Origin: Thermosediminibacter oceani DSM 16646
GTDB taxonomy: Bacteria; Bacillota; Thermosediminibacteria; Thermosediminibacterales; Thermosediminibacteraceae
DNA: 64,000 nt
Direction of reading: 5' to 3'
NCBI RefSeq assembly: GCF_000144645.1
Contig: NC_014377.1
Span: forward strand, 1,984,001 to 2,048,000
Below, piece after piece: positions 23,940 through 36,925 of this stretch; position 1 is the stretch's first letter; each line of letters starts with the position of its first letter. The notes beneath the pieces were generated by a model, which made no database searches, was not told the DNA's origin, and saw only the letters and a program-made list of their open reading frames with translations. The position numbers were made by a program, and so were the translations under genes.

Positions 23940-23963
23940 GGGTTGCCCGGATGCGGGCAACCT
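23940..23963. repeat. Target-site duplication, left copy, of IS copy 3 (24 bp); niaR-proximal hairpin
   Basis: A hairpin with arms GGTTGCCC/GGGCAACC is repeated at 25559-25582. It is the niaR terminator, split from its T-run by the insertion. Confidence 0.95.
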
Positions 23964-25558
23964 CAGCTTGTAGACAAAGCCGCTTTTAGGATGCATAACC
24001 TAAAAGCGGCTTTTTGTTGAAGGCGAAGAAAATTTTTAAGAAAAACGAATGTAAAGCGGGGACTGTTGGCGGAAACGTTCCCCGTCTTTTCTTCCATAAA
24101 GCCAGCTTTTTTAAATTCATGCATGCGAAAAGAAGCGTGAGGTAATGTCCAACTTTCCTCAAGCCTCGTAGATTTGTATAGCGCATGCCATGCTTTTCCT
24201 TCGCATCGGCAAATACCCGCTCGATGGTCTGGCCGCGCATTTTGTATAGTTCTTTACCCCATTGGGTGTGTCTTATATCTTCCGCTATTTCTATGTAATG
24301 CTCCCATATATGCCGAGTTATGATTTTTGTGTAATTTTTACTTTTGGTGCACTGTAGGCGCATGGGACATTTACAGCATATTTGGGGGTTGCTCCTATAT
24401 TCCCGGTATCCCGCCCGGTTGGTGGTGCTGTATTCTAATATTTGGTTGTTGGGGCATATGTAACAATCATAATATTCGTCATAGACGTATTCGCGTTTTT
24501 TAAAGTAGCCATCTTTGGTCATCGGCCTCTTGTAGGGCATAACGGGAAGCGCTCCTGCCTCAATGATTTCTCTGCATATCCCGGGGGTTTTGTAGCCTGC
24601 ATCAACCACTACCGCCTCTATTTTAGAAAATTTATCGTTTACTTCTTGAAATAAATCGGAGAATACCTGGCTGTCATGAACATTTCCAGGTGCTATTTTG
24701 ACACCAAGGACAAAGTTGTTCCGGTCACAGGCTACAGAAGCTGTGTAGGCAAAGCAGCGCTCTTTTTCCCCTTTTTGAAACATCCCACTTTCAGGATCTG
24801 TGGTGCTTACCCTGACTTTTTTAGAGCTATTTTCTCCTTTGTTGTTATCGTCATCATCATCTTCTTCTTCAAAGGGCTTTTTACCGTTTGCTTCCCGTTC
24901 GGCGTTGATTTCTTTTAAAAGTTCTTTCTTATATTTTTGAGTCCGTTGCTTAGCGACTTTCTCGATATATTTATTCTTATTGGCACTGGCTTTTATGTGA
25001 GTAGCATCGATAAATACTGCATCTGTTTTAACAAACCCGCATTCTATTGCTTCCATCAACACCCGCTCGAATATCTTTTCAAATAGATCACTTTCCTTAA
25101 ACCGCCGTTCATAGTTTTTTCCAAAAGTTGAAAAGTGAGGTATTTTTTCTTGTAATCCATAGCCTAAAAACCAACGGTAAGCTACATTGACTTCTACTTC
25201 TCTGATGGTTTGGCGCATGGAGCGGATTCCATACAATGCTTGGAGCATGAGTAGCTTAATTAACACTACCGGGTCAATACTAGGTCTTCCTGTATTTTCG
25301 CTATATAGGTCTTTTACTTCATCATAAATGAAATTAAAGTCGATGCTTTCTTCTACTGCCCTAAGGAGATGGTCTTGAGGTACTAAGCTATCGATGCTTA
25401 CTAATTCTACCTGCTCTATTATTTCTCGATTTTTCTTCGTTAACATTTCATCGCCCCACAATATTTTTGTATCTTCTTTAATTTTACTAAAAAGCTGATG
25501 ATTTTTGTACTGGCTTTTGCAAAAAAAGACTGTCGACAGTTACTTTGTCGACAGTCTG
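23964..25558 (-). mobile_element. IS1182-type insertion sequence, copy 3 (1595 bp)
   Basis: Same length and ends as copies 1 and 2. At least two bases differ: a codon change E179K in the transposase (numbered from the upstream TTG) and A to G near 25512. It is flanked by a 24-bp duplicated hairpin. Confidence 0.95.
23986..25446 (-). CDS. IS1182-family DDE transposase (copy 3)
   Basis: It equals copies 1 and 2 except for lysine instead of glutamate at residue 179 (KYKKELL, upstream-TTG numbering), outside the catalytic residues. ATG 25446 is preferred, with TTG 25461 as the longer alternative. It is intact and probably active. Confidence 0.95.
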   Translation of the reverse strand: MLTKKNREIIEQVELVSIDSLVPQDHLLRAVEESIDFNFIYDEVKDLYSENTGRPSIDPVVLIKLLMLQALYGIRSMRQTIREVEVNVAYRWFLGYGLQEKIPHFSTFGKNYERRFKESDLFEKIFERVLMEAIECGFVKTDAVFIDATHIKASANKNKYIEKVAKQRTQKYKKELLKEINAEREANGKKPFEEEDDDDDNNKGENSSKKVRVSTTDPESGMFQKGEKERCFAYTASVACDRNNFVLGVKIAPGNVHDSQVFSDLFQEVNDKFSKIEAVVVDAGYKTPGICREIIEAGALPVMPYKRPMTKDGYFKKREYVYDEYYDCYICPNNQILEYSTTNRAGYREYRSNPQICCKCPMRLQCTKSKNYTKIITRHIWEHYIEIAEDIRHTQWGKELYKMRGQTIERVFADAKEKHGMRYTNLRGLRKVGHYLTLLFACMNLKKLALWKKRRGTFPPTVPALHSFFLKIFFAFNKKPLLGYAS

Positions 25559-25590
25559 GGGTTGCCCGGATGCGGGCAACCTTTTTTTCT
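25559..25590 (+). terminator. Right copy of IS copy 3 target duplication, the original niaR terminator
   Basis: The hairpin arms GGTTGCCC/GGGCAACC are followed by TTTTTTTCTT, a full terminator. The 24-bp repeat spans 25559-25582. Confidence 0.93.
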
Positions 25591-25700: not shown

Positions 25701-25729
25701 AAGAAAAAAACCTAGCCTAACTAGCTAGG
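25701..25729 (-). terminator. Minus-strand terminator with no minus-strand gene: candidate antisense RNA end
   Basis: On the minus strand CCTAGC-TAGTTAG-GCTAGG (25729-25711) is followed by TTTTTTTCTT. No protein gene on that strand leads into it; the nearest upstream minus-strand gene is iadA beyond niaX. Confidence 0.65.
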
Positions 25730-25773
25730 AGGACTAGTACAAATTAGCTTTTCTGCCTAGTATGATAATACTC

Positions 25774-25802
25774 TTGCCTTCCTTTTAGAATACCGCTATA
25801 AT
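25774..25802 (+). promoter_or_regulatory. Promoter of the small hydrophobic peptide gene
   Basis: TTGCCT (25774-25779), an exact 17-bp spacer and a perfect TATAAT (25797-25802). A transcript would start near 25809. Confidence 0.8.
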
Positions 25803-25827
25803 TTAGATAGCAGTGTGGGAGAATTTG

Positions 25828-25861
25828 CCTCCGCTCCTGGTCTTTGACGCCAGGGAGGAGG
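25828..25861 (+). promoter_or_regulatory. Leader hairpin sequestering the ribosome-binding site
   Basis: CCTCC (25828-25832) pairs exactly with the Shine-Dalgarno GGAGG (25857-25861), and the inner stem CCTGG/CCAGG (25836-25840 with 25850-25854) closes a 9-nt loop. The full-length transcript should be poorly translated unless processed or refolded. Confidence 0.65.
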
Positions 25862-25871
25862 AAAATCCAAT

Positions 25872-25967
25872 ATGACAATATCCGATTTAATAGAGCTCCT
25901 TCAATTAATAGTTGCAATCATCGCGCTAAACAAAGAAAAAAAAATAAGCCTCCTAAAAAGCAACTAG
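25872..25967 (+). CDS. 31-residue hydrophobic peptide, candidate type I toxin
   Basis: The peptide has one probable membrane helix (about residues 6-20, LIELLQLIVAIIALN) followed by a basic tail containing KEKK. ATG 25872 is 10 nt after GGAGG. A strong promoter precedes it, the ribosome-binding site is masked, a strong terminator follows, and a minus-strand terminator upstream suggests an overlapping antisense RNA. This layout matches type I toxin-antitoxin loci of Firmicutes. I do not recognise the exact family, and a leader peptide or a chance ORF remains possible. Confidence 0.6.
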   Translation: MTISDLIELLQLIVAIIALNKEKKISLLKSN

Positions 25968-25995
25968 ATTAGAAAGACTTTTGCCACCCAATCAA
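25968..25995 (-). promoter_or_regulatory. Candidate antisense-RNA promoter
   Basis: On the minus strand TTGATT (25995-25990), a 16-bp spacer and TCTAAT (25973-25968). A start near 25961 and an end at about 25703 would give an RNA of roughly 260 nt covering the whole small ORF and its ribosome-binding site. Confidence 0.4.
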
Positions 25996-26042
25996 GGAAC
26001 GTCAAAACCAGGAATCGGAAAAATTCGATTAACCACGCTGCC

Positions 26043-26082
26043 GATATTCTCCGGTGTTGCCGCACCGGAGAATATCTTTTTT
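26043..26082 (+). terminator. Terminator of the small-peptide transcript
   Basis: A perfect 14-bp stem (GATATTCTCCGGTG at 26043-26056, complement 26063-26076) is followed by TTTTTT. Confidence 0.92.
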
Positions 26083-26327
26083 ATCACCATTATTATACAC
26101 CAAAAGAGGTGTTTTTATAAATCATATTATATCAAAAAGAGTAAAATTACAAGCTTTTTTTCAGTAACGTACCAAATTTTACTTATACATACCTATTTTT
26201 TCTTAAAAAATCTAATATCTGCTAAATGGGTAAGGAAGAAAATTTATGCTCCATTATTTTATAGAAAATTTTATATCAACTTGCTAAAAATACAAGACAT
26301 ATGAAGCGTCTCCTGATCGGTAAGTTG
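26083..26327. other. AT-rich intergenic region without a recognisable gene
   Basis: A weak hairpin with T-run (about 26097-26117) and a pair of inverted 8-bp arms (GTAAAATT/AATTTTAC, about 26140-26182) are visible. Nothing coding is supported. Confidence 0.5.
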
Positions 26328-26364
26328 TTGACATATAGCTGTATATACAGTAGAATATATACAG
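26328..26364 (+). promoter_or_regulatory. niaX promoter with palindromic operator
   Basis: TTGACA (26328-26333), a 17-bp spacer and TAGAAT (26351-26356). The spacer contains the 12-bp perfect palindrome CTGTATATACAG (26339-26350), and its right half TATATACAG recurs at 26356-26364. The position over the core promoter suits a repressor, plausibly NiaR. Confidence 0.65.
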
Positions 26365-26394: not shown

Positions 26395-26886
26395 ATGAAC
26401 GCGAAAAACTTGGTAGTGGGCGCACTGCTGACCGCCCTTGCCCTGGTAATTCCCATATCCTTAGGCGGTTACCTGCGCATCTATATTCCGCCCTTTTCGG
26501 CAACCCTGGCCTCCCACGTGCCGGTCATGCTGGCCTTTTTAATCAACCCGCTGGTAGCGGTAATGGTCGGCCTCGGATCCACCGCTGGGTTTCTCATAAT
26601 GATGGGGCCCGTTGTAGCCGCCAGGGCATTCATCCACGTCGTCTTCGGCTATATTGGAGCGAAGCTGGTCCAGCAAGGTACCCCCCTGGAAACGGCGCTT
26701 ATGATAACGGCGCCGGTACACGCTCTGGGGGAATCCCTAGTAGTTCTCCCCTTCGGTTTTACGCTCTACAATGCCATTGTCCTGGTAGGCGCCGGAACGC
26801 TCCTGCACCATCTGGTGGACGGCGCTATTACCGTCGTCCTGGCAAGGACGGTGCTTGCAAGGGCCTTATTCAGGGTGAGAAATTAA
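26395..26886 (+). CDS. niaX: ECF transporter S component, probably niacin-specific (NiaX)
   Basis: A 163-residue membrane protein with about five or six spans. It resembles the niacin-binding S components (ATLASHVPVMLAFLINPLVAV block, and a conserved RAFIHVVFG segment). It would use the shared EcfAAT module encoded elsewhere to import nicotinate. AGGATGGG precedes ATG 26395. The nearby niaR gene supports the niacin assignment, which otherwise rests on recollected family resemblance. Confidence 0.75.
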   Translation: MNAKNLVVGALLTALALVIPISLGGYLRIYIPPFSATLASHVPVMLAFLINPLVAVMVGLGSTAGFLIMMGPVVAARAFIHVVFGYIGAKLVQQGTPLETALMITAPVHALGESLVVLPFGFTLYNAIVLVGAGTLLHHLVDGAITVVLARTVLARALFRVRN

Positions 26887-36732: not shown

Positions 36733-36754
36733 TATTTTAAAACTGGAAATTTGA

Positions 36755-36925
36755 AACCTTCAAGGTGCCCCTTTTTGGGGAGAATAGGGAAGTCCGGTGA
36801 AAGTCCGGCGCGGTCCCGCCACTGTAACGGGAAGCCGCCTTATAAGATGCCACTGGGAAACCGGGAAGGCATAAGGCGGCGATGAACCGGAGCCAGGAGA
36901 CCTGCCTTGAAAGGTAGTGTCCGGG
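36755..36925 (+). ncRNA. Cobalamin (B12) riboswitch
   Basis: The aptamer contains the B12 box GAGCCAGGAGACCTGCC (36890-36906), the core GCCACTGT (36818-36825) and paired GTCCGG arms. It precedes a terminator and the cblT-cblS genes, so adenosylcobalamin should reduce their expression. Confidence 0.93.

Follow-up and report, generated by a model that had tools for sequence, protein, structure and literature searches.

The type I toxins of Bacillus follow a known pattern in which the Shine-Dalgarno (SD) sequence is hidden by RNA structure and an antisense RNA is convergently transcribed; in bsrG/SR4 and bsrE/SR5 the convergent antisense RNA lies at the 3' end of the toxin gene (PMC6562991). In aapA/IsoA of Helicobacter pylori, metastable hairpins formed at the time of transcription are combined with long-distance 5'-3' pairing (PMC6733600). 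Here we describe a locus in a 64,000-nucleotide (nt) stretch of the Thermosediminibacter oceani DSM 16646 chromosome (NC_014377.1, positions 1,984,001 to 2,048,000; hereafter the window, in whose coordinates all positions are given), which we read, with a probability of about 0.8, as a chromosomal type I toxin-antitoxin locus, a divergent relative of the BsrG/TxpA (Hol_Tox) group. The strongest evidence for this reading is the conservation of RNA structure through compensatory changes; antisense transcription in this genome and toxicity are its weakest links.

Like bsrG/SR4 and bsrE/SR5 of Bacillus subtilis (RF01412), the locus encodes a short hydrophobic peptide and holds its SD in a hairpin, and the Rfam BsrG consensus contains pairing between leader and 3' untranslated region (3'UTR) of the same kind. 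It differs in that a BsrG-type phage peptide matches Hol_Tox whereas the window peptide does not, and in that the leader strand hiding the SD also forms the 5'-3' helix. TxpA, too, is larger than the window peptide. A strong SD is a likeness to txpA/RatA of the B. subtilis skin element (PMC3531473). Similarly, aapA/IsoA and hok/Sok share with the window locus the long-distance 5'-3' pairing and transient hairpins during transcription (PMC6733600), whereas their peptides and phylum are different, and an activating 3' trimming is known for them.

As in type I toxins, the locus has its own promoter and an SD, and encodes a small hydrophobic peptide with a charged tail. The elements of the toxin mRNA are as follows (G001, G002 and G004 are related genomes; G002A and G002B are the two G002 loci).

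25774 to 25802, plus strand: promoter, TTGCCT-17-TATAAT, 10 of 12 consensus matches, in the same place in G002A and G002B.
25810 to 25849, plus strand: leader arm (GCAGUGUGG..GAAUUU..UCCG.UCCUGGU.UUUGACG), pairing with the 3'UTR at probabilities of 0.96-1.00, with compensatory changes in homologues.
25853 to 25861, plus strand: SD GGGAGGAGG, mean unpaired probability 0.12 in the nascent and 0.26 in the full-length RNA.
25872 to 25967, plus strand: open reading frame (ORF) of 31 codons, MTISDLIELLQLIVAIIALNKEKK followed by ISLLKSN, with one hydrophobic stretch.
25936 to 25944, plus strand: A9 tract, where a one-base frameshift is proposed; read on the minus strand, it supplies the U-tract for the putative antisense terminator.
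26000 to 26041, plus strand: 3'UTR arm complementary to the leader (CGUCAAA.ACCAGGA..CGGA.AAAUUC..CCACGCUGC), conserved at the DNA level in G001, G002 (two copies) and G004.
26043 to 26076, plus strand: intrinsic terminator with a 15-base-pair (bp) stem, with compensatory stem changes in G002A and G002B.

A sequence-only reading of this DNA had proposed the near-consensus promoter, pairing of the leader CCTCC (25828-25832) with the SD GGAGG, a short hydrophobic peptide and a very strong terminator, all of which were borne out. Folding of the predicted transcript, suggested there as a check, gave -89.3 kcal/mol for the 272-nt RNA against -55.9 +- 4.7 for dinucleotide shuffles (z -7.1), mainly because of 33 bp that join the leader (25810-25849) and the 3'UTR (26000-26041), every helix with a probability of 0.96-1.00, rather than because of the leader hairpin. 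The leader/3'UTR duplex has an energy of -52.9, compared with -34.6 +- 4.9 for shuffles (mononucleotide shuffles, as for all duplex energies here). The CCUCC and CUCCUGG of the leader arm can pair with the SD region instead. In folding of growing transcripts, the SD is held in the CCUCC hairpin until the 3' arm exists, when the leader moves to the long-range helix; in the full-length fold the SD is still mostly sequestered. Blocking the 3'UTR in silico re-forms the SD hairpin, which resembles the action of SR4 on bsrG (PMC6562991).

As in a BsrG-like architecture, the leader/3'UTR pairing is conserved with compensatory changes. A DNA search of genomes of the same genus and family revealed two tandem complete loci in G002 (L140), with promoters TTGACT-17-TATAAT (G002A) and TTGAAT-17-TATAAT (G002B) positioned as in the window and products MTTAEILLLLHLVVDIIGIALQQKK and MTIIELLILIQLVIMIIV, respectively, with an early TAG in the second. 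Folded on its own, each locus forms the long-range helices of the window (z -9.0 and -9.9 against mononucleotide shuffles). The outer helix is GCAGUGUGG/CCACGCUGC in the window, GUGAUGUGG/CCACAUCGC in G002A and AUGGUGUGG/CCACACCAU in G002B; four of its nine pairs are altered on both sides, as are two further pairs, counted on hand-defined gap-free helices, MAFFT having misaligned parts of the leader and the 3' arm. Between the window ORF and G002A there are 7, 4 and 12 differences at codon positions 1, 2 and 3, respectively, fewest at position 2.

Partial copies are present in two other genomes. In G001 of the same genus (contig C6, minus strand about 522-617), the leader-complementary arm and terminator hairpin are kept without leader or ORF, and this 3' half may be either a relic or a stand-alone antitoxin. 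The G004 copy (contig C56, minus strand about 180-264) is truncated to the 3' arm with half a terminator; it is broken by other sequence, perhaps a small insertion sequence, that carries a CTACACCTAAAGGTGTAG hairpin. With a covariance model built on the 3' region, only five places match in 61 genomes (the window, the two G002 loci, G001 and G004), and the locus is therefore single copy in the window genome. One match to the leader, in G058, was rejected as the start of an unrelated longer ORF.

The sequence-only reading did not recognise the peptide family, which can be identified as Hol_Tox/BsrG-like. Phages and plasmids searched with the window peptide gave no match. Searched alone against 398 genomes of the phylum, the peptide gave weak matches only (E 0.25 or worse, several within long ORFs); two of these, L015 and L018, had the RNA anatomy of the window and served as the entry point to the family. 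When the hydrophobic core was turned into a degenerate DNA pattern, 24 loci were found in genome contigs, nearly all in Bacillota, and two in viral contigs. Most share one layout of a -10 box, a leader with SD, an ORF that is about 24-32 codons long and as a rule has lysines at its end, and a leader-complementary 3'UTR. RNAalifold, given ten more distant homologues of the MVTYSDLIQ type and no input structure, returned a 22-pair leader/3'UTR consensus in which nine pairs have compensatory changes. The duplex energy is not significant in every homologue (z < -3 in 21 of 39), and a shuffle baseline raised by GC-rich leaders may be the reason. Pfam PF16935 (Hol_Tox, putative holin-like toxins) matches seven of nine relatives tested (E 4.8e-7 to 0.03, one above the cut-off), L071 and L099 exceed the Rfam RF01412 BsrG cut-off, and the RNA anatomy of the window recurs in Hol_Tox loci from the same order. 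With the window and G002 both left out of the profile, the window ORF ranks first of 2297 ORFs (E 1.9e-11). The window peptide is a member of a broad family of Bacillota, one that overlaps Hol_Tox and BsrG, and is itself below both thresholds.

The length of 31 residues given by the sequence-only reading holds for the annotated ORF; the ancestral ORF was probably one of 24 amino acids. When one A is deleted in silico from the A9 tract, MTISDLIELLQLIVAIIALNKEKK is followed by a TAA (25945-25947) in the shifted frame, and the resulting ...NKEKK is the usual ending of the family. Because this family-type ending falls at the stop position of G002A (...QQKK), ISLLKSN was probably added by a frameshift or reflects an error in sequencing.

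The proposed antisense elements, and a further minus-strand hairpin, are as follows.

26092 to 26121, minus strand: proposed antitoxin promoter, TTTATA-18-TATAAT, 10 of 12 matches, its position with respect to the terminator shared by several distant homologues.
25946 to 25980, minus strand: proposed weak antisense terminator hairpin (AAGUCUUU/GGAGGCUU or GCUU/AGGC, -7.4 and -3.2 kcal/mol) at the shifted stop, followed by the U-tract over A9.
25936 to 26084, minus strand: proposed antisense antitoxin RNA of about 149 nt over the ORF end and 3'UTR, placed by the promoter and terminator positions.
25729 to 25711, minus strand: terminator-like hairpin with a T-run.

The best minus-strand promoter in homologues is usually just past the 3' end of the toxin mRNA, and seven homologues have a perfect TTGACA-17-TATAAT on the minus strand at stop+83 to +89. 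A minus-strand terminator overlaps the ORF end, with the lysine codons as its U-tract, in 33 of 41 loci (each reached by <=10% of shuffles), a count that includes the window, whose hairpin, picked at the annotated stop, is probably spurious. From the window equivalents of the homologue promoter and terminator, the antisense RNA is predicted to be about 149 nt long and to lie over the 3'UTR; by position it most likely starts near 26084, past the toxin terminator, ends in the toxin lysine codons, and covers the 3'UTR and not the ribosome-binding site, only the 3'UTR being targeted also by RatA and SR4 (PMC6562991). The homologues, with their conserved RNA structure, 3'-flank antisense promoter and ORF-end antisense terminator, thus support the type I architecture which the sequence-only reading had suggested.

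In the mechanism that we infer, the plus-strand transcript (about 25809-26076) would encode a membrane peptide that has a single helix and a basic tail. During transcription, the leader CCUCC would pair with the SD and block translation; once the 3'UTR is made, the same leader strand would move to the 33-bp 5'-3' pairing, the SD then being covered by the start of the ORF. The convergent antisense RNA, running from near 26084 to the toxin lysine codons, would pair with the entire 3'UTR and, because it is similar to the leader in sequence, would displace the leader, so that the SD hairpin returns and RNase III gets a substrate. Upon loss of the antisense RNA, the stable mRNA would remain and be translated.

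Several points weigh against this reading. The SD looks hidden in both predicted folds, and its opening for the start of translation is unexplained. The consensus of the window antisense promoter is weak, being equalled by 8% of shuffles, the antisense terminator is weak as well, and G002B and G001 have no clear antisense promoter. The window peptide has no Pfam (including PF16935) or NCBIfam match, and the window RNA fails RF01412 up to E 10. The profile score is partly circular as the relatives had been found via the window peptide; RNA features were not selected for. An Rfam search of the locus gave chance-level matches only.

The window copy may be partly decayed, given the A9 frameshift and the weak antisense promoter and terminator. 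That it is a decaying remnant, a system no longer working in this genome, is a stronger claim which we consider somewhat unlikely: the extension relative to the family, the weakened antisense elements, the 3'-only relics in G001 and G004 and the early stop in G002B are consistent with it, but the promoter, SD, 5'-3' pairing, terminator and hydrophobic core are all intact, and a C-terminal extension need not abolish activity. A hydrophobic peptide controlled by RNA structure might instead have a non-toxic role, in signalling or as a regulator of a membrane protein. Hol_Tox is itself named 'putative' in Pfam and toxicity is here a deduction, but the combination of a structure-hidden SD with a convergent antisense RNA is the known pattern of Bacillus type I toxins (PMC6562991), which makes this role improbable. 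The sequence-only reading had proposed that an antisense RNA, about 260 nt long, runs over both the ORF and the ribosome-binding site, from a promoter at 25995-25968 (TTGATT-16-TCTAAT) to 25711. The terminator-like hairpin at 25729-25711 is present, but the -10 sequence has no A at position 2 and fails the scan, the promoter is weaker than that at 26121-26092, and the homologues place the antisense promoter 3' of the ORF and its terminator at the ORF end, so that this RNA is very unlikely. Least probable of all is that the ORF is a chance feature of a structured non-coding RNA or a small mobile repeat, as the inverted repeats at the transcript ends and the relatives lacking the locus at this site might suggest: differences are most frequent at third and least frequent at second codon positions, peptide homologues have an SD in the same place throughout Bacillota, and the locus is single copy.

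As to origin, the genes for a NiaR-type regulator and a downstream membrane protein are adjacent with a short gap in seven relatives, and in none of the seven does this orthologous gap contain the locus. The stretch of about 300 bases is therefore probably a gain at this site, not something that all seven have lost. Between the two genes, the window has an IS1182 element and about 700 bases carrying the locus. The IS1182-family element spans 23940-25582 (transposase, 23986-25461). The 24-bp direct repeat on its flanks corresponds to GGGTTGCCCGGATGCGGGCAACCT, the hairpin that terminates the upstream regulator gene, and this terminator was apparently duplicated upon insertion. The promoter (26328-26356) of the membrane-protein gene (26395-26886, product without Pfam or NCBIfam match) overlaps a TGTATATACA-like palindrome present in relatives, and adjoins the 3H/HTH_11 NiaR-type regulator. 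Elsewhere in the window there is a cobalamin riboswitch at 36746-36923.

The finding extends BsrG/TxpA-type systems to loci missed by both Pfam and Rfam thresholds. More tentatively, the Bacillota-wide family may be an RNA switch in which one leader strand either hides the SD or closes the mRNA end to end, a leader-mimicking antisense RNA forces the choice, and the lysine tail is conserved partly as the U-tract of the antitoxin terminator. Leader/3'UTR complementarity together with an antisense terminator within C-terminal lysine codons provides a search rule that goes beyond the peptide itself, and the copies in related genomes that consist of a 3' part only could be antitoxins in their own right. 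Mutually exclusive leader folds and a leader-mimicking antisense RNA would constitute a directly testable model of switching.
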